Shown here piece by piece: positions 7,984-62,544 of a stretch of DNA of 64,000 nt. The stretch lies in assembly GCF_014202215.1 (NCBI RefSeq), contig NZ_JACHGB010000008.1:62001-126000 (forward strand), read 5' to 3'. A program made the position numbers and the translations under genes. The notes beneath the pieces were generated by a model, which was given only the letters and a program-made list of their open reading frames with translations, did no database searches and was not told the origin of the DNA. This DNA is from Quisquiliibacterium transsilvanicum. Lineage in GTDB: Bacteria; Pseudomonadota; Gammaproteobacteria; Burkholderiales; Burkholderiaceae_E. How positions within the stretch are numbered: position 1 is the stretch's first letter; each line of letters opens with the position of its first letter.

Positions 7984-9186
7984 TCAGCCGTGCGACAGCC
8001 CCATCACCTCGCGCACTTCGCGCATGGTTTCGATGGCGAACTTGCGTGCCTGGTCGCAGCCGTCGGCGACGATGTTGCGCAGCAGGCCGGGATCGTCGAG
8101 GTAGGGCTGGGCGCGCTCGTGGAACTGCTGCTGCTCGGCGATCACCGCGTCGATCACCGGCTGCTTGCAGTCCAGGCAGCCGATTCCCGCGCTGCGGCAG
8201 CCCTTGACCACCCACTCGCGGGTGGCGTCGTCCGAATACACCTGGTGCAGCTGCCACACCGGGCAGCGCTCGGGCTCGCCGGGATCGGTGCGGCGCACCC
8301 GCGCCGGGTCGGTCGGCATCGTGCGGATCTTCTTCGTGACCGAGGCAGGATCTTCGCGCATCGCAATCGAGTTGCCGTAGCTCTTGCTCATCTTCTGCCC
8401 GTCGATGCCGGGCATGCGCGAGGCTTCGGTGAGCAGCGCCTGCGGCTCGGAAAGAATGATCCTGCGGCTGCCTTCCAGCCATCCGAACAGGCGTTCGCGG
8501 TCGCCCTGCCCGATGTTCTGCGAGTCCTCGAGCAGCGCCCTGCCCTGCTGCAGCGCCTCGTCGTCGCCCTGCTCCTGGTAGCGGGTGCGCAGCTCCGAGT
8601 ACAGCCTGGCGCGCTTGCTGCCGAGCTTCTTCACCGCCTCGCGCGCCTTGTCCTCGAAGCCGGCCTCGCGGCCGAACAGGTGATTGAAGCGGCGGGCCAC
8701 CTCGCGTGTGAACTCGATGTGCGGCACCTGGTCCTCGCCCACCGGCACCCACGCGGCGCGGTACAGCAGAATGTCGGCCGCCTGCAGCAGCGGGTAGCCG
8801 AGGAAGCCATAGGTGGAGAGATCGCGCTCGGTGAGCTTTTCCTGCTGGTCCTTGTAGGTGGGCACCCGCTCGAGCCATCCGAGCGGCGTGCACATCGACA
8901 GCAGCAGGTGGAGCTCGGCGTGCTCGGGCACCCTGGACTGGATGAACAGCACCGACTGCTGCGGATCGATGCCCGCCGCGAGCCAGTCGACCAGCATCTC
9001 CCAGGTGTTGGGTTCGATGACCTCGACCGAATCGTAGTGCGTGGTCAGCGCGTGCCAGTCGGCCACGAAGAACAGGCACGGATACTCGTTCTGGAGCCTG
9101 ACCCAGTTCTTCAGGGCACCGTGATAGTGGCCGAGATGCAGCGCACCCGTGGGGCGCATGCCGGAGACGACGCGTTCGGGAAACAT
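7984..9186 (-). CDS. trpS: tryptophanyl-tRNA synthetase
   Basis: A 400-residue class I aminoacyl-tRNA synthetase charging tRNA-Trp. The HIGH-type motif reads HLGH (17-20) and the KMSKS motif is exact at 265-269. It is longer than the compact 330-residue type because of an insert around residues 190-255. A four-cysteine motif C308-x21-C330-x6-C337-x2-C340 lies after KMSKS; this is almost the C-x22-C-x6-C-x2-C pattern that binds a [4Fe-4S] cluster near the anticodon site in Thermotoga maritima TrpRS. It ends the unit alpha/beta hydrolase-PHP-yciO-trpS. GGAGG lies a few bases before the start. Confidence 0.97.
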   Translation of the reverse strand: MFPERVVSGMRPTGALHLGHYHGALKNWVRLQNEYPCLFFVADWHALTTHYDSVEVIEPNTWEMLVDWLAAGIDPQQSVLFIQSRVPEHAELHLLLSMCTPLGWLERVPTYKDQQEKLTERDLSTYGFLGYPLLQAADILLYRAAWVPVGEDQVPHIEFTREVARRFNHLFGREAGFEDKAREAVKKLGSKRARLYSELRTRYQEQGDDEALQQGRALLEDSQNIGQGDRERLFGWLEGSRRIILSEPQALLTEASRMPGIDGQKMSKSYGNSIAMREDPASVTKKIRTMPTDPARVRRTDPGEPERCPVWQLHQVYSDDATREWVVKGCRSAGIGCLDCKQPVIDAVIAEQQQFHERAQPYLDDPGLLRNIVADGCDQARKFAIETMREVREVMGLSHG

Positions 9187-9244
9187 GAGGGGAGGACCGG
9201 ACGAAGGAGTTGGCGGATTCTAGCAAGCGGGCCCGGCCGGGCGG

Positions 9245-38005: not shown

Positions 38006-38830
38006 TCATTCCGGCCGCGTGCCGGCCAGCGTGATGCGATGCATCTCGCGCCGGAAGCCGTGATAGTCGTTGACCGGGTTGTGCAGCGCGCAGCGGTTGT
38101 CCCACAGCGCCAGCGATCCCGGCTCCCAGGAGAAGCGGCAGGTGAACTCCGGACGCACCTGGTGCTCGTGCAGGAAGCGCAGCAGCGGCGCGCTCTCCTC
38201 CTGGCTCATGTCCCGGAAGCGCAGCGTGTGCGCGACGTTCACGTAGAGCGCGCGGCGGCCGGTTTCGGGATGGGTGCGCACCACCGGGTGTTCCGCGAGG
38301 TACTCACGAGGCGCCTCCTGCTGCCCATGGTCGCGCACCCGATCTTCGCGGGTGCGCGAGACGTCCGCCTTGGCCGAGCTGTTGACCCCGACCAAGCCGT
38401 CGAGCATCCGCCGCATGCCCGGCGACAGCGCCTCGTAGGCCAGGTACTGGTTGGCCCAGAGGGTGTCGCCGCCATAGGGCGGCACCTCGCGGGCCAGCAG
38501 CATCGAGGCCATCGGCGGCACCTCGAGGTAGGCGGTGTCCGTGTGCCAGATGCCGCCGAAATTGACCCGCTCGTGGGGCAGTTTCACCACCTCGATGATC
38601 TCCGGAAACCCGGGCATCCCCTTGACGAAGGGATACTCGACCGGCTCGCCGATCGCGCGCGCGAAGCGCATGAACTGTTCCGGGCTCAGCGGCTGATCCC
38701 GGAAGAAGACCACCAGGTGCTCCAGCCACGCCGCGCGGATCTCGCGCACGAGGGCATCGGGCAGCGGGCTGCGCAGGTCCACGCCCTCGATGACAGCGCC
38801 CAGGGCGCCGGCGATGCGGCGCAGCTTCAC
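38006..38830 (-). CDS. TauD/TfdA family Fe(II)/2-oxoglutarate dioxygenase
   Basis: A 274-residue dioxygenase. The metal triad begins with HTD (H96, D98), and the distal histidine and the 2-oxoglutarate-binding arginine lie in LHNPVNDYHGFRREMHRI at the C-terminus. Substrate unknown; homologues act on taurine, 2,4-D, sulfate esters and other acids. The start is a GTG whose GTGA overlaps the stop of the hot-dog gene upstream, with a GAGGA ribosome site. Coupling with a hydratase-like protein suggests a small catabolic pathway. Confidence 0.92.
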   Translation of the reverse strand: MKLRRIAGALGAVIEGVDLRSPLPDALVREIRAAWLEHLVVFFRDQPLSPEQFMRFARAIGEPVEYPFVKGMPGFPEIIEVVKLPHERVNFGGIWHTDTAYLEVPPMASMLLAREVPPYGGDTLWANQYLAYEALSPGMRRMLDGLVGVNSSAKADVSRTREDRVRDHGQQEAPREYLAEHPVVRTHPETGRRALYVNVAHTLRFRDMSQEESAPLLRFLHEHQVRPEFTCRFSWEPGSLALWDNRCALHNPVNDYHGFRREMHRITLAGTRPE

Positions 38831-39741
38831 GCCAGATCCTCGTAGCCGGCGTAGGAGTGCTTGAGCGTGGCGTGGTTGAGCAGCACCTCCGCGCGCAGCC
38901 GCTTGCCGTCCGGATCGAAGATGCTCGAGCGCACCCAGTAGGACTCGGTGCGCTTGCTCTCGGACAGGGCCACGATCTCGCGCCGGATCAGGTAGTCCTG
39001 TCCGACGAACAGCGGCCCGTCCACCATGCGGATCTCCTGGTCGGCGAACAGGCCCACCGCGGGCCCCTTGACGGGGAAGCGCGCGCTGCGGTTCGAGTAT
39101 TCGGCCAGCACGCTGATCATCTCCATCGGGATGATCGCCCTGCCCCACGGCGTGGACGCGGGATCCGAGTACCAGGGCGAGCTCTCGGTGATCTTGGCGA
39201 GCTTCTGGTTCAGCGAGAAGGGATAGAGATTGCCCATGTGCTGATCGGCGTCCATGCGCACCAGCTCGTCTTCGGCGCCCTTCATCCCGACCGCGAGGTC
39301 GGCCAGGATCACCAGGCGCTGCGGCGGGCGCAGCTGCGCCATCCGCTGATCCAGCAGTGTCTGCCCGTGGCCGGACCCGAGACTGGCGCTGGCCTCGAGC
39401 ACCGGCGTGCCGTCGGCCTTCTGCGCCCAGGCGCGGGTGAGCGTCGCCCCCTCCGCCGGAATCTCCACGAAGGCCCTCACCTCCTCGCCCTCGACCACCA
39501 TGTTCTGGTAGTGCGCCGACATGCAGCCGCGCTCGAACCAGGCCGGCCCCCAGAGCTTCGCCATCAGCGGCGCGAACTGGCTGAAATGGGTGGGCCCTTC
39601 GATCGGCCCCGCCCTGAAGCCCAGCTTCTCCGCCATCGAGTCGTCATGGATCGAGGCGTGGCCGCCGTACTCCTGTTCGGCGAGCATCTGGAGCGGCTTG
39701 CGCAAGGGGCCGCACAGGGCCAGCGGGGTGTCGAAGCTCAT
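38827..39741 (-). CDS. double hot-dog (MaoC-like) protein, hypothetical
   Basis: A 304-residue protein that looks like two fused hot-dog domains. The segment IHDDSMAEKLGFRAGPIEGPTHFSQF resembles the D-x4-H/overhang region of MaoC-type (R)-hydratases, though the usual HG is replaced by EG. It could hydrate an enoyl-CoA or act as a thioesterase; I cannot name a substrate. GAGGAG precedes the ATG at 39741. It leads an apparent unit with the dioxygenase, MGMT, DUF488, murI and CWC genes. Confidence 0.7.
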   Translation of the reverse strand: MSFDTPLALCGPLRKPLQMLAEQEYGGHASIHDDSMAEKLGFRAGPIEGPTHFSQFAPLMAKLWGPAWFERGCMSAHYQNMVVEGEEVRAFVEIPAEGATLTRAWAQKADGTPVLEASASLGSGHGQTLLDQRMAQLRPPQRLVILADLAVGMKGAEDELVRMDADQHMGNLYPFSLNQKLAKITESSPWYSDPASTPWGRAIIPMEMISVLAEYSNRSARFPVKGPAVGLFADQEIRMVDGPLFVGQDYLIRREIVALSESKRTESYWVRSSIFDPDGKRLRAEVLLNHATLKHSYAGYEDLA

Positions 39742-39937
39742 GGGACGTCGTCTCCTCTTGTTCCGTGTGTAGGTGCCTGGACTGCCGGGACATCTTTGCA
39801 CAGGCCGCGCCGCTTAGCATTTACTTAGCGATCCGTGAATGAAGTTTTAGGAAACGGCGCAAGCCTCCGTCCCTAGACTCCTTGAACGCGTCGGGCAGGC
39901 GCCGCGACGCACCAACGCACACCGAGGAGCTTCGACG

Positions 39938-40657
39938 ATGGACATCGTTTCACGCATGGCAGCAGCGGCCCGCGCCACCCCCAGGTACGACATGTACGCT
40001 GGCATCCACAAGGCGCTGCGCGCCTTCATGGGCGACACGCTTGCGATGGTCGGCCGATGCGACTGGCAGGACGAGATCGACGCCAGCCGCACACTGGCCC
40101 AGCTGGGCGAGCTGCTCGCCGTCTGCGAAGTGCACGTGCATGACGAGAACGTCTTCGTCCACCCGGCAATCGAGGCGCGCCGGCCCGGCGTCAGCGCCCG
40201 GGTGGCCGGAGAGCATGAGCATCACCTGGAGGAGATCCATGCGCTGCGGCAGGCCGTCGCCGAGCTCGGCCGGCTGCGGGGCGCCGCGCGCGGGCCGGCT
40301 GCCCACGCGCTCCAGCTCGAGCTTGCGCTGTTCGTCGCTGCGAACTTCGTGCACATGAACCACGAGGAGACGGTGCACAACGCGGCGCTTCGGGAGGCCT
40401 ACACGGATGCGGAGCTCGCGGCGATCGAGGCCGCGCTGGTGGCCACGATCCCGCCCGAGGCGATGGAGCTGATCGCGCCCTGGATGCTGCGCAACCTGTG
40501 CCACCAGGAGCGCGTCGCGCTGCTCTCCGGCATGCGCCAGGGCGCGCCGGCCGAGGTCTTCGAGGGCATGCTTGCGCTTGCTGCGTCGCAGCTGCCGGCG
40601 CGCGACTGGGCGAAGCTTGCGCAGGCGATCGACGTGCCGCTGGCGCGCGCGGCGTAG
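39938..40657 (+). CDS. hemerythrin-like HHE domain protein
   Basis: A 239-residue all-helical protein with a hemerythrin/HHE-like set of metal ligands: HVHDENVFVHPAIE, GEHEHHLEEIHAL and FVHMNHEETVHNAAL. Such proteins bind a di-iron centre and sense or carry O2, NO or oxidants. The C-terminal 80 residues form an extra helical part (MLRNLCHQERVALL, AASQLPARDWAKLAQA) beyond a plain hemerythrin domain. It faces the PPOX-GAF genes tail-to-tail across a 51-base gap. Confidence 0.8.
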   Translation: MDIVSRMAAAARATPRYDMYAGIHKALRAFMGDTLAMVGRCDWQDEIDASRTLAQLGELLAVCEVHVHDENVFVHPAIEARRPGVSARVAGEHEHHLEEIHALRQAVAELGRLRGAARGPAAHALQLELALFVAANFVHMNHEETVHNAALREAYTDAELAAIEAALVATIPPEAMELIAPWMLRNLCHQERVALLSGMRQGAPAEVFEGMLALAASQLPARDWAKLAQAIDVPLARAA

Positions 40658-40679
40658 GCGGCCGTAAACGGCATAGACG

Positions 40680-40704
40680 GCCCGGGCGGCACAGGCGCCC
40701 GGGC
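40680..40704. terminator. hairpin between hemerythrin-like and PPOX-GAF genes
   Basis: A 9-bp GC-only perfect stem (GCCCGGGCG / CGCCCGGGC) with a 7-base loop between two convergent genes. No T-run. Confidence 0.5.
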
Positions 40705-40708
40705 AGCC

Positions 40709-42100
40709 TCAGCGCTCCTCGACCAGTACCAGCTGCCGATCGGTGACCAGCTGGTACAGGCCACGCCCCACGCGCCGGATCTGCAGCGGACCGGCCCAGT
40801 CGGCAAGGCGGCGCTGCAGCAGCAGCAGCCGCACCGCGAGGTTGTCCTGCACGTCGGGCAGCCGCAGCCGCCTGCCCTCCAGCCGCAGCTCCCGTGAAGT
40901 GAATGCGGTGCGGCCGCTGACAACCGCATCGTTCGCCAGTTTCCAGAGGATGGCTCCGGCGACCCCCTTGATCAGGTAGGAATCGTCGATGAAGACGCTG
41001 TCGTCGCGCGCGTAGTGGCGGATCCGCAGCGGCGGGCCCGCGGCGCCGGCGCCCGCGGCAGGTACTGGCGCGAGGTCGTGCGCGCGCAGCGCGTGAACAT
41101 TCTCGCCCTCCTCGGGCTGCAGCGTGAGCAGCGCCTGGGCCAGCTGCGCGCACAGCAGCGCGAGTGCGTCCTCGTCGTCGTAGCCGAAGAACTGATCGCT
41201 CTCGCTCTCGACCAGCAGCACCCCCACGCTGCGCCCGCGCGCGCGCAGCGGCACCGCGAGCTGGCTGCACGGCGTCGCGAGGCCCGGCAGCGGAATCTCC
41301 GCGCGCATCGCCGCCTCGATGCCCAGGTCCTGGGCCTGGGCGAGCAGGGTCCTGCCGTAGCGGTACATCCGCGCCATGTGCCCGATCCGGATCGGCACGC
41401 CCTCGCGCAGCGCGACGCCGGCCAGCCCAGCGTCGTCCATCGGCAGCTCGGCGCCGGTGCCCGCCTGCGCATAGCCGCGGCTCGCGATCGCGAACAGCAT
41501 GCCGCGCCGCTCGTCGAGCAGCCACAGGATCGCGTGATCGATCCGCAAGTCCCGGCCAAGACCGTCCATCGTCGCCTGGAGCACCGAGGCAAGGTCCTCG
41601 CAGTCGGCCAGGCGCCGGGAGACGGCTCGCGCGGCGGCGGCCAGGTCGCAGCGGGCGGCCAGCACCGGCAGCGCCTTCACCTGCTGGATCCGATTCACCT
41701 CCAGCACGCGATAGATGTCCGCCCCGCGCAGCCGGAACACTTTCTCCATGCCGCTGTGCGCCGCGATTCCGGCGAGCTTGGCGCGCAGCCGCTCGAAAGT
41801 CGGGCCCTCGGTCTCGGTGCGCAGGTAGCGCAGCTGCATCTCCACCCCGGCGCCGGAGAACGGATCCTCGGCCATCAGCGCCACCCGCCCGGTGGACAGG
41901 ATGTTCTCCCTGCTGCGATTCAGGAACTGGAAGCTGAGCGCCACATGCTCGTCGTCGACGTACTCGGCATGCGACAGCAGGTTCGCATGAGGCACGCCGT
42001 CGGCGGAGACGCTGCAGATCGACGGCGGGATCATGCCGTCGAGGATGCGCCGAACGTCGCGCAGCGTCAGCCCGGATCGTTCGCCAGAGGGCGCGTTCAC
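40709..42100 (-). CDS. PPOX - GAF - winged-helix sensor protein
   Basis: A 463-residue protein with three parts. Residues 10-150 resemble an FMN-binding PNPOx-like split barrel (GMIPPSICSVSADGVPHANLLS, AEDPFSGAGVEMQLRYL). Residues 160-325 are a GAF domain (CEDLASVLQATMDGLG to SQLAVPLRARGRSVGVLLVES). Residues 360-463 look like a winged helix (DDSYLIKGVAGAILWKL, LPDVQDNLAVRLLLLQRRL). A flavin- or redox-responsive transcription regulator is a plausible reading. Its start overlaps the stop of the upstream PPOX gene by 4 bases. Confidence 0.72.
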   Translation of the reverse strand: MNAPSGERSGLTLRDVRRILDGMIPPSICSVSADGVPHANLLSHAEYVDDEHVALSFQFLNRSRENILSTGRVALMAEDPFSGAGVEMQLRYLRTETEGPTFERLRAKLAGIAAHSGMEKVFRLRGADIYRVLEVNRIQQVKALPVLAARCDLAAAARAVSRRLADCEDLASVLQATMDGLGRDLRIDHAILWLLDERRGMLFAIASRGYAQAGTGAELPMDDAGLAGVALREGVPIRIGHMARMYRYGRTLLAQAQDLGIEAAMRAEIPLPGLATPCSQLAVPLRARGRSVGVLLVESESDQFFGYDDEDALALLCAQLAQALLTLQPEEGENVHALRAHDLAPVPAAGAGAAGPPLRIRHYARDDSVFIDDSYLIKGVAGAILWKLANDAVVSGRTAFTSRELRLEGRRLRLPDVQDNLAVRLLLLQRRLADWAGPLQIRRVGRGLYQLVTDRQLVLVEER

Positions 42101-42582
42101 GGCAGCAGCTCCACGGGGGCCCCGGCCCCCGGTCCAGGCGTCTGGTTCCAGGCGCCCCAGGGAGTGAAGGTGACCGAGTACAGGTCGCCCGCGCGCGCCG
42201 CATACCAGCCCGCGATCACTGGCGAGTCCGCCGGGAATCCGTCCGCGCGCAGCGAGCTCACCAGGGCCGCGCGCCGCTCAGCGAGCAGCGCGTCGCAGCC
42301 GGCGTCGACCCGCTCGACGACCGCATCGCGCCCCTTCATGTGCAGCGTCCGGTTGGTCTCCGGCGAGACCATCAGCGCCGCCACCTGGCCGGTGGCGCGG
42401 ATGGCGTCGAGCACACGCGGCCCCGCGTCGCCGGCCATCAGGATCCGGACCCGGCCATTGGCCAGCAGCTGTGCCGCGAGGGCGCGACAGACGCTGGGCC
42501 TGCCCGCAAGGTCGCAGGCGCCCAGGCGATACGAAGTCAGCCTGGGGAAGTGCTCGATCCATTCGTCCGGGAGGGTTGGCAC
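42097..42582 (-). CDS. PPOX-type (pyridoxamine 5'-phosphate oxidase-like) protein
   Basis: A 161-residue single split-barrel protein of the PNPOx-like superfamily. Seen are PSVCRALAAQLLANGRVRILMAG, QVAALMVSPETNRTLHMKG and FTPWGAWNQTPGPG. Members bind FMN, F420 or haem. It is coupled (ATGA) to the PPOX-GAF-winged-helix gene, so the two proteins probably share a ligand or a pathway. Start at 42582 has GGAGG upstream. Confidence 0.75.
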   Translation of the reverse strand: MPTLPDEWIEHFPRLTSYRLGACDLAGRPSVCRALAAQLLANGRVRILMAGDAGPRVLDAIRATGQVAALMVSPETNRTLHMKGRDAVVERVDAGCDALLAERRAALVSSLRADGFPADSPVIAGWYAARAGDLYSVTFTPWGAWNQTPGPGAGAPVELLP

Positions 42583-42624: not shown

Positions 42625-43548
42625 TCAGACCCCTTGATCGCTGCGCGCGCGCGCAGCTGCCCGCGTCTGCGTTCGCTGCTGCCGCAGCATGAACAGCCCG
42701 GCAGCCAGCAGCAGCCCGATGCCGGCCCAGGCCAGCCCGTTGGGCACGTCTCCCCAGACCAGGTAGCCGATGAGCAGCGCCCAGAACAGGCTCACGTAAC
42801 GGAACGGGGCCACGACGGAGATCTCGGCATGGCGGGTGGCCGAGATCACCGAGTGGTATCCGGTGGCCAGGCACACTGCGGCCAGGCCGAGCAGCGCGAC
42901 GTCGCGCCAACCCATCGGCTGCCAGCCCTCCACCGCCAGGACCGCGCCGGCCATCAACCAGACCACGCCGGCAGTGGCGAGCGTGACCAGGATGGAAGGC
43001 GTTCCCGCCGGGATCTTCCGGGTCAGCAGGTCGCGCATCGAATAGACCACCGTGGCCAGCAGGCACAGCCAGGCATAGAGGTTGAACCCGTCGGCGCGCG
43101 GCTGGATCACCAGTAGCACACCGACGAACCCGGCGCCGATCGCGAGCCAGCGGGCGCGGTCCACCCGCTCCCGGAGGAAGACCACCGCCAGCAGCGCGAT
43201 GAAGAGCGGAGACGACAGGTTGATCGCCGTGGCGTTGCCCAGCGGCAGGTGGTACAGCGCAGCCAGGTACATGAAGGTGCCGATGCCCTCGCATGCGGCG
43301 CGCAGCAGCACCCAGCCGCGCGCCACGTCCGCGATCCGCGGGAGCGCCCCCATGCGCCAGGCCACCAGCAGGATCAGCGTGATCGCCATCACCCCGCGCA
43401 CCACGATCATCTGCGCCGTGGGCAGCCGCTCGCCCAGGCTCTTGATCAGCGCGTCATTGCAGATGAAGGCGGTGACCGCCAGCAGCATCCAGAGGATGCC
43501 GACCCGGTTGGCCTGGGCCCGGCGCTCCGCGGTGATCGGGGGCGTCAT
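42625..43548 (-). CDS. DMT-superfamily transporter (EamA)
   Basis: A 307-residue membrane protein with ten predicted helices in two EamA repeats (the first starting GILWMLLAVTAFICNDALIKSL, the second at LYAWLCLLATVVYSMRDLLTR). EamA proteins export metabolites such as amino acids; substrate unknown. An upstream in-frame start at 43593 would add an Arg-rich leader and is less likely than MTPPIT at 43548. It ends 42 bases before the start region of the PPOX gene. Confidence 0.88.
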   Translation of the reverse strand: MTPPITAERRAQANRVGILWMLLAVTAFICNDALIKSLGERLPTAQMIVVRGVMAITLILLVAWRMGALPRIADVARGWVLLRAACEGIGTFMYLAALYHLPLGNATAINLSSPLFIALLAVVFLRERVDRARWLAIGAGFVGVLLVIQPRADGFNLYAWLCLLATVVYSMRDLLTRKIPAGTPSILVTLATAGVVWLMAGAVLAVEGWQPMGWRDVALLGLAAVCLATGYHSVISATRHAEISVVAPFRYVSLFWALLIGYLVWGDVPNGLAWAGIGLLLAAGLFMLRQQRTQTRAAARARSDQGV

Positions 43549-43785
43549 GCCGGCACCCGAGGGTTCGCTGCCGCGCCGGGGCCGCGCCCGCAAGGCGTCG
43601 ATGCTGCGATGGCTCCTGCCGGGATCATGGGCGCAATCGGTGACTGGGACAGCGGCATTGTCGTGGCGAATCCCCTGGCGCGGCGCCGCCTCGAGGGTCG
43701 GCGCGTTCCGGGAAACGCGGCGGCCGCAGAACGGGCCGTCAGCGGTGGCAGCGAGGCGGCCACAGCGTCGGCCCGGACGCTCTGC

Positions 43786-61064: not shown

Positions 61065-62544
61065 CGGGATTGCGCCTCCTCGGGGCACTTGCAGCCGCTG
61101 CCGCGGGCTTGCGGGTCGCGGGCTGACCCTGGCCCTTGGCGCGGCGGGCGGCTGCGAGCATCGTCACGAACTCTTTCTGGAACCGTTGCGTGATGGTCTC
61201 GGGGTCGGGCACGAGGTGCGCGTCGGCGACGATTGCAAGCGTGGCTTTGCCGCGGTAGCTGAGGATGCTGATGCCCATGCCGAGGTGCTCGCCGGGGTGC
61301 GGTACCCAGAACATCACCCGCTCGATCGGCACGCCGGCCACGTGGAGCGTCTGCGGCGGGCCCATCACGTTGGTCATCACGACGCTCGCCTTGCTGCTCA
61401 GCATCGACGACGGGATGTCCGAAACCGCCTTCGGCGTGCGACCGAAGATGTCGAACAGCACCCGCATCGCCATCGGCTCGGGCGAGCGCTTCAAGGCGTC
61501 CATGTTCTCCTTGGTCACGCGCAGCCTCGCCATCGGTGTCCTGGCCGCGACGGCAAGCTCGAGCAGCACCAGGCCGAAGTCGTTGCCCAGTTCCAGCGCA
61601 CGCTCCGGCGGCCGCAGGTCGACCGGCACCATTGCACGCAGCGTCGTGTGCTCGACGTCGACGCCGCGCTTCTTCAGGTAGGCACGCAGCGCGCCGGTCA
61701 TGCCGGCCACCAGCACGTCGTTGACCTTCGCACCGGCCAGCGCACCGATCGCCTTCACGTCGTCGATCGCCACCGGCTCCGACCAGGCGACGCGCTTGGC
61801 GAGCGAGAAATCGCCCTTGAACGGCGATCGCGGATCGTCGCGCTTGAGCAGTTCGGTCAGCAGCATGCCCGCGCCGCCGGCGAGAAGCGCGGCGCGGTCG
61901 ATCAGCGCCTGCGGATGCCGGACCGCGTCGACGACCGTGCTCGCGGTCGAGACGGCCGCCCGTCTGGCCCCTACCAGCAGATCGAAGGCCGGGTCGAGCC
62001 AGCCGCTGTCCCGATCGCCGTCGCCGTCGCCGTCGGCGATGGGCGCCGCCGCGGCCTTGCCCCGGCGTCCCGGCGCAGCCGGCGTCATGTCATACAGGCG
62101 CATGGACAGCGCCGCCATCGAAGTGCCATCCCCCATGCAGTGATGGAAGCGCGTGACGAGAGCGCTGCCGCCGTCGACGCCGTCGATGACGTGCACCTGC
62201 CACAGCGGCTGCAGGCGGTCGAGCGGCGTGCTCACGATGTCGTTGAGCAGCTCCGTCAGGGCGCGCCTGCCCCCCGGCGGGGGCAGTGCCACATGGTGCA
62301 GGTGCTGGCCCATGTCGAAGTCCGGCATGTCCTCCCAGTGCGGCGACGGAATCGGCCAGCCATGCTCGACGACCCGCTGTCGGAAACGCGGGAACCCCGC
62401 CAGTCGTTCCGCGTACAGCGCCTTGACCGCGGCGAAGTCGAGCGGCTTGCTCGTCAGCGCCACGCTGGTGACCATCGCCAGGTTGGCGCGCCCGTCCATG
62501 TGGTACCAGGCGGCGTCCACGGGCGCCATCTTGTGCAGCGTCAT
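61057..62544 (-). CDS. wax ester synthase / diacylglycerol acyltransferase (WS/DGAT)
   Basis: A 495-residue acyltransferase esterifying acyl-CoA to alcohols or diacylglycerol. The HHxxxDG active-site motif is intact at H134-H135-x3-D139-G140, followed by GTSMAAL; further family segments are KVNDVLVAGMTGALRAYL, NDFGLVLLEL and NVMGPPQTLHVAG. Such enzymes form storage lipids (wax esters or TAG) in some bacteria. The start at 62544 gives MTLHKMAPVDAAWYHMD. A short GDGDGD run lies in a linker. Confidence 0.93.
   Translation of the reverse strand: MTLHKMAPVDAAWYHMDGRANLAMVTSVALTSKPLDFAAVKALYAERLAGFPRFRQRVVEHGWPIPSPHWEDMPDFDMGQHLHHVALPPPGGRRALTELLNDIVSTPLDRLQPLWQVHVIDGVDGGSALVTRFHHCMGDGTSMAALSMRLYDMTPAAPGRRGKAAAAPIADGDGDGDRDSGWLDPAFDLLVGARRAAVSTASTVVDAVRHPQALIDRAALLAGGAGMLLTELLKRDDPRSPFKGDFSLAKRVAWSEPVAIDDVKAIGALAGAKVNDVLVAGMTGALRAYLKKRGVDVEHTTLRAMVPVDLRPPERALELGNDFGLVLLELAVAARTPMARLRVTKENMDALKRSPEPMAMRVLFDIFGRTPKAVSDIPSSMLSSKASVVMTNVMGPPQTLHVAGVPIERVMFWVPHPGEHLGMGISILSYRGKATLAIVADAHLVPDPETITQRFQKEFVTMLAAARRAKGQGQPATRKPAAAAASAPRRRNPDA

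Follow-up and report, generated by a model that had tools for sequence, protein, structure and literature searches.

The OmpR/PhoB-type regulator KdpE binds the direct repeat TTTATA-N5-TTTACA, as given in the excerpt of PMC3264566, and PhoP, a regulator of the same type, binds 7-bp repeats with 4-bp spacers in the account excerpted from PMC4832192. FBXL5, which carries a hemerythrin domain, works with iron and O2 in mammals (excerpt of PMC12022348), and YtfE functions as a nitrite reductase (excerpt of PMC9052748). Here, we describe a locus of Quisquiliibacterium transsilvanicum (assembly GCF_014202215.1). It lies in a 64,000-nucleotide stretch (the window), comprising positions 62,001 to 126,000 of the forward strand of contig NZ_JACHGB010000008.1, and consists of a gene for an FBXL5-like hemerythrin (HHE), a gene for a fusion of PPOX, GAF, and C-terminal domains (PPOX-GAF-CTD), and a gene for a small PPOX-type partner. 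PPOX-GAF-CTD is probably a one-component, phosphorylation-independent activator of HHE that acts via tandem repeats with an 11-bp period. A preliminary description of this DNA did not recognize the arrangement as a described system, and no described PPOX-GAF-hemerythrin system was found in the open-licence literature. The features of the locus are as follows.

39813 to 39851, plus strand: operator upstream of HHE, YTTARS repeats with an 11-bp period (CTTAGC at 39813, CTTAGC at 39824, degenerate GTGAAT at 39835, TTTAGG at 39846)
39874 to 39879, plus strand: putative -10 element TAGACT, 22 bp after the array (from the sequence, with TAnnnT at equal spacing in other HHE promoters)
39938 to 40657, plus strand: HHE, 239 amino acids, FBXL5-like hemerythrin (di-iron type) whose C-terminal helical extension is conserved, proposed target of the regulator (open reading frame [ORF], profile, and fold match)
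40709 to 42100, minus strand: proposed regulator PPOX-GAF-CTD, 463 amino acids, GTG start (ORF, Pfam, AlphaFold2, and homolog profiles)
Residues about 10 to 140 of the regulator: split-barrel PPOX domain
Residues about 150 to 330 of the regulator: GAF domain
Residues about 355 to 463 of the regulator: winged-helix-like C-terminal domain (CTD)
42097 to 42582, minus strand: small stand-alone PPOX-type partner, 161 amino acids, GTG start (ORF and homolog profiles)

The three ORFs are present where the preliminary description had placed them, the small PPOX gene and the fusion gene overlap by 4 bp, and HHE is convergent with this pair across a 51-bp gap. A neighborhood comparison was based on 47 loci (L numbers; genomes carry G numbers) that came from searches for the fusion, near-duplicates among them; the profiles were derived from alignments A1 to A3. 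Of 20 plasmid matches, 12 were fetched, and HHE was sought on the plasmid itself only, the L029 record excepted. In these loci, retrieved as they were via the fusion, the small PPOX gene adjoins the fusion gene in 47/47 (39/39 plus 8/8), and HHE lies within the fetched flanks in 25/47 (21/39 plus 4/8), with four arrangements among them. The tail-to-tail layout that had been noted for the window recurs in 12 other loci (L052, L053, L055, L061, L063, L064, L068 to L071, L110, and L107, in the last of which the convergent HHE gene is about 6 kb from the fusion gene), but it is not general, as the genes stand head-to-head in 10 loci (L012, L013, L015, L016, L020, L026, L027, L054, L104, and L106) and on the same strand in 2 (L066 and L062).

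Among 300 genomes sampled from the order, the fusion was found in 21, HHE in 19, and both in 16; the fusion occurred without an HHE match in G065, G134, G144, G173, and G261, and HHE occurred without a fusion match in G045, G158, and G293. A sample of 398 genomes from the phylum, which shares G000, G084, and G293 with the order sample, contained the fusion in 9, HHE in 7, and both in 6, with the fusion only in 3 and HHE only in 1. These absence counts are upper bounds because the genome searches took only some of the initial candidates through to scoring and overlooked G168, in which the fusion is truncated. The expectation that the genes are conserved together is thus borne out, and gene order, co-occurrence, and a shared operator support the conclusion that the three genes belong together.

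The operator motif was spotted by eye in L012, L013, L015, L016, and the window, and these five are not independent tests. In an alignment of the head-to-head intergenic regions of three Achromobacter loci and one Comamonas locus, four hexamers with exact 11-bp spacing read toward HHE; in the window, CTTAGC-N5-CTTAGC at 39813 to 39829 is in register with TTTAGG at 39846, with a degenerate third position. This stretch at 39813 to 39829 is the sole exact YTTAGSN5YTTAGS match in the 4.26-Mb source genome. The strict pattern was run in system genomes only, in 21 picked from the 32 that have the system, where 22 of 35 matches were at the system's own promoters and six genomes were without any match. 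With three copies and one mismatch allowed, 25 of 37 matches in 33 genomes were at system promoters. The distances between sense-strand repeats in 23 of 29 HHE promoters (left out were the near-duplicates L013, L016, L027, L064, and L070 and also L112, which has no operator) were 11 bp in 30 cases, 22 bp in 18, and 33 bp in 12, with a mean of 0.013 for the 11-bp distance in 300 mononucleotide shuffles. Of 33 HHE upstream regions, near-duplicates included, 29 carry a sense-strand repeat pair with at most one mismatch, compared with 5 of 33 on the antisense strand and 7 of 2,021 background windows. The four regions without a pair belong to two long paralogs (L111 and L188), to L112, in which no regulator was detected, and to L117, in which HHE is the second gene in an apparent operon. 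This L117 operon (1 to 1147) comprises HHE and a preceding gene for a 191-amino-acid protein that has no match in Pfam; its array of four hexamers, with three mismatches, is about 630 bp upstream of HHE, and the regulator may lie in an assembly gap because the contig ends inside HHE.

HHE genes that are unlinked to or distant from the fusion gene still carry the operator, with five copies in G249 (L116, about 35 kb off), four in G299 (L114, on another contig), and one-mismatch versions in G170 (L113) and G338 (L107). In the Acidovorax genome G329, with two HHE genes on other contigs, L187 has the operator and the long paralog L188 does not. A second operator layout, in which two 17-bp repeat pairs with starts 31 to 32 bp apart replace four hexamers in 11-bp register, was seen in L020, L021, L104, L105, and L108.

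The position and direction of the array bear on how it would work. Of the HHE promoters, 25 have a best four-copy array with no more than four mismatches, and in 18 of these TAnnnT is located exactly 22 bp past the array (it is absent at this spacing in L020, L027, L054, L068 to L070, and L104); this is a raw count, made after the spacing had been noticed by eye. Upstream of PPOX, in 43 of the 47 loci (left out were L013, L016, L027, and L028), the operator was found 0 times in the sense direction and 18 times in antisense, pointing away from the gene, and there is hence no indication that the same signal brings about autorepression. These observations are relevant to the possibility that the regulator is a repressor, whose array would overlap the -35 region and block the polymerase until a ligand releases the protein. 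Arrays with as many as five repeats close to the -35 region could shield the promoter, but the fixed spacing to the -10-like hexamer argues for activation and the repeats face the target gene and in no case PPOX, and repression is therefore considered unlikely, although it keeps some weight.

The same operator is found in front of other genes at loci of this kind. It precedes FMO-like genes in L021, L025, L029, L105, and L108, a cupin gene in L022 to L024 (in L022 and L023 with arylamine N-acetyltransferase and YceI genes behind it), and c-type cytochrome genes in L065, L108, and G168, and weakly in L057 and L060. In G151, a remote NmrA-like gene carries a four-copy array followed at 22 bp by TAGACT. 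The preliminary description had included HHE in the sensing module, and this part is not supported: HHE is better explained as a regulated product because the operator is at the HHE promoter and moves with HHE and because FMO, cupin, and cytochrome c genes replace HHE elsewhere. If HHE were a co-sensor that feeds back on PPOX-GAF-CTD in a sensing complex, its tight co-occurrence with the fusion and its similarity to a known iron/O2-sensing hemerythrin would be accounted for, but fusion genomes lacking an HHE match (5/21 in the order and 3/9 in the phylum) and the different genes behind the same operator make this quite improbable. The exchange of oxidoreductase targets suggests that a redox or electrophile signal is sensed, more than iron or NO as such, and none of the results singles out NO, haem, F420, or low O2.

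In the regulator itself, the GAF domain of the window protein scored above the Pfam cutoff (56 bits versus 28.6), and PNPOx_N was below it in both flavin-type proteins (20.0 or 14.0 versus 28.1), while 24 of 25 fusion homologs matched PNPOx_N at an E value of ≤0.01. The AlphaFold2 model (mean pLDDT, 84) shows a split barrel, a GAF domain, and a winged-helix-like CTD, in agreement with the fusion first described. In fold searches, the N-terminal domain resembled the FMN-binding protein 3in6 (TMt, 0.73; Z, 16.4; root mean square deviation [rmsd], 4.2; 137 aligned residues). In the same model, the CTD consists of strands at 358 to 377, a helix at 379 to 395, a strand at 399 to 401, helices at 402 to 412 and 421 to 435, and a hairpin at 440 to 452, and this order, taken from the secondary structure of the whole-protein model, is compatible with the OmpR/PhoB winged helix as depicted in the excerpt of PMC3264566. 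Whole-model fold searches are silent on the CTD, and equally on the HHE extension, because the GAF domain and the helical bundle dominate the matches. A phospho-acceptor receiver domain was not found in the regulator, whose Pfam families are PNPOx_N and GAF only; this, together with the split-barrel and GAF inputs, is why a one-component regulator is proposed. The CTD is probably DNA binding, as had been suggested, considering its predicted element order and the 11-bp direct-repeat operator that accompanies the gene. In a search of 250 genomes of the order for the CTD outside the fusion, a single remnant-like 45-residue match was found, at the N-terminal side of an otherwise unrelated ORF in G153 (L156, 1078 to 1827), a genome in which the fusion was not found. 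Frame-broken copies of PPOX-GAF-CTD were observed in L027, L028, L110, and L115 (two Rhizobium leguminosarum plasmids and genomes G534 and G249), and in G249 the HHE gene with the five-copy operator survives 35 kb away from the broken copy.

Several results weigh against PPOX-GAF-CTD as the activator that binds this operator. By sequence, membership of the CTD in the OmpR family gained no support: the fusion was not among the 18 matches up to an E value of 10 in a Trans_reg_C (PF00486) search of the source genome, hhalign of the CTD against 13 OmpR DNA-binding domains of its own genome gave a probability of 1.3%, Pfam assigned no OmpR-type family to any of 25 homologous CTDs, and HMMER, PDB profile, and Pfam searches with the CTD gave no significant match. 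The model is thus that the regulator works like an OmpR-family protein, with whose binding mode the operator and the predicted CTD topology agree, and not that it is one, because the sequence does not support membership. The Fisher tests of fusion and HHE co-occurrence (P = 1e-19 in the order and 1e-10 in the phylum) ignore phylogeny. The consensus was changed from YTTARY to YTTARS, with the last base fitted to the same data; one of the four window repeats is degenerate, and three-copy patterns, which the window array does not satisfy, had 0 matches in G000. The reversed pattern gave 134 matches in the same 21 genomes versus 35 for the real one, and raw counts hence show no enrichment, whereas location does. 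No operator was seen at loci such as L018 and L019, L112 has a short-form HHE for which neither regulator nor operator was found, and of the 12 neighboring cytochrome c genes, 4 have the operator or a weak one upstream, 1 is at a contig end, and 7 have none. In addition, of 17 exact three-copy arrays, found in 10 of 230 genomes of the order, 9 are in six genomes that gave no sign of the fusion (G235, G043, G131, G182, G063, and G146). The regulator's role as the binder is inferred from its co-occurrence with the operator and its position, and a different regulator could use the same sites.

That different regulator would be an OmpR/PhoB-type response regulator, and PPOX-GAF-CTD would then be a redox enzyme or a ligand protein of the cytoplasm that is inherited together with HHE. 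In favor of this, repeats like those of KdpE are characteristic of response regulators, no OmpR match of the CTD was obtained at the sequence level, 13 Trans_reg_C proteins score above the cutoff in the source genome, and in L028 a Response_reg and Trans_reg_C gene (8484 to 9206, plus strand) is directly behind the operator. Besides the three-copy matches in the six genomes, this explanation would also accommodate arrays at about 1490 to 1539 in L205 (G144, with the fusion) and L223 (G182, fusion not found), from two genomes of one family, that can be read on either strand and lie close to cytochrome b561-like genes; neither array has TAnnnT at 22 bp. However, the operator adjoins the fusion gene also at loci without an HHE gene close by (L021 to L025, L105, L108, and L109), and a response-regulator-containing cluster is present in at most 4 of 36 loci. 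Several matches in the six genomes are plain tandem repeats, and none combines an array with TAnnnT at 22 bp. Of the other 8 three-copy matches, 6 are at HHE promoters of the known system genomes G020, G249, and G102 and 2 are in G168, which was earlier counted as lacking the fusion. In G168, a perfect four-copy array with TATTCT at 22 bp precedes a cytochrome c gene, and the repeat search there led to a system previously counted as absent: on the contig, which is 12.4 kb long, a PPOX gene of the module's family at 76 to 576 (145 bits) runs off the end, and a weak match to the fusion (E value, 7e-7) was also obtained, the fusion having been missed because the gene is likely cut by the contig end. 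The comparison of three-copy arrays between genomes with and without the fusion gave a Fisher P value of only 0.03, computed before G168 was recognized. Altogether, a separate response regulator as the binder is viewed as improbable. That the genes are chance neighbors without a functional link, for which nothing but the varied wider neighborhood speaks, is hardly credible, as it is contradicted by conservation in independent arrangements, co-occurrence, and operator location and spacing.

HHE belongs to the hemerythrin family by its four-helix bundle and conserved His and Glu residues of the ligand type, and iron binding is predicted, although the hemerythrin Pfam score of the window protein is just below the cutoff (23.2 versus 25.3). 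The best PDB match of its profile is the FBXL5 hemerythrin domain (6e-9), which is also the best fold match of its model (Z, 18.1; rmsd, 1.9; 153 residues), the next non-FBXL5 entry scoring 13.8. In the AlphaFold2 model (pLDDT, 93.5), the bundle is followed by five further short helices, which agrees with the extra C-terminal helical part previously noted. The candidate di-iron ligands are conserved among homologs as H24 (19/19), H66 (18/19), E70 (19/19), H93 (17/19), H96 (18/19), H139 (19/19), and E143 (18/19), and three candidate ligand residues are lost in the L071 protein. Longer HHE paralogs of 414 to 421 amino acids, with extra N-terminal hemerythrin-like matches and no operator upstream, occur in L111 (G293) and L188 (G329). 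The small PPOX partner in the window matched PNPOx_N with an E value of 0.067, and 8 of its 18 homologs matched at an E value of ≤0.01.

With the linkage and co-occurrence of the genes, the operator with its spacing and direction, and the swapping of targets shown computationally, the proposed mechanism can be outlined. The N-terminal split barrel, the separate PPOX partner, and the GAF domain would take in a signal, most likely a redox or small-molecule one, via a flavin-type cofactor. The OmpR/PhoB-like CTD would then bind tandem 6+5-bp direct repeats (YTTARS, 11-bp period), which end about 22 bp upstream of the HHE -10 element, beside the -35 region, and the architecture suggests class II-like activation at the HHE promoter. 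The product may be an FBXL5/YtfE-type di-iron hemerythrin acting in the same stress response, possibly in O2, peroxide, NO, or iron handling. A broader and more tentative possibility is that the locus represents a new proteobacterial family of one-component regulators (split-barrel flavin fold, GAF, and OmpR-like winged helix, with an obligate PPOX partner) that read a flavin-type redox signal and control swappable oxidoreductase targets, mainly FBXL5-like hemerythrin. If true, bacteria would have their own equivalent of the iron/oxygen-sensing hemerythrin of eukaryotes, coupled to transcription. The analysis provides a concrete operator, target, and regulator for genes annotated as "GAF domain-containing" or "hypothetical" in several plasmid records, and it opens a direct way to learn which signals bacterial PPOX/GAF proteins sense and which function FBXL5-like hemerythrins have in bacteria.

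The wider neighborhood is varied. Among neighbors in 36 loci, with only the largest clusters considered, none apart from the module occurs in most loci that would name the signal, and the extra neighbor that recurs most often encodes a c-type cytochrome and is present in 12 of 54 loci at an E value of ≤1e-6. In the window, a gene for a 324-amino-acid protein without a Pfam match (38827 to 39801) is divergent from HHE, with the operator just upstream and pointing away from it. An EamA-type transporter gene (42625 to 43593) is on the same strand as PPOX and 42 bp upstream of it, and cotranscription of the two is possible.

Compared with known systems, the operator logic is familiar, and the regulator architecture, partner, and target are new. 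As in the OmpR/PhoB regulators KdpE and PhoP, the repeats are direct with an 11-bp period, and the predicted order of CTD elements is strands, helix, short strand, helix, recognition helix, and hairpin; the KdpE site, as given in the excerpted source, and the HHE operator have equal 6+5 spacing and a TTTA core. The differences are that PPOX-GAF-CTD has PPOX and GAF domains as its input in place of phosphorylation, no receiver domain having been found, that its CTD has no detectable sequence similarity to Trans_reg_C, and that the CTD model has three N-terminal strands, whereas KdpE has four. The N-terminal domain is like split-barrel FMN-binding (PPOX) proteins in its match to 3in6 and differs from them in being fused to a GAF domain and a CTD. 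HHE resembles FBXL5, its best profile and fold match, and its ligand-type His and Glu positions align with residues that we take to be the FBXL5 ligands; unlike FBXL5, HHE is bacterial, has no E3-ligase partner, and carries a C-terminal five-helix extension, and an FBXL5-type iron/O2 role would be an extrapolation by analogy. The ligand order of YtfE is H, HxxxE, H, HxxxE, and HHE shares this order; 3 of 19 HHE homologs match the YtfE/RIC family TIGR03652 weakly (best E value, 4e-4), whereas the window HHE has no match to this NCBIfam model. If confirmed, the system would represent OmpR-style tandem-repeat activation without phosphorylation, with a flavin-fold input.

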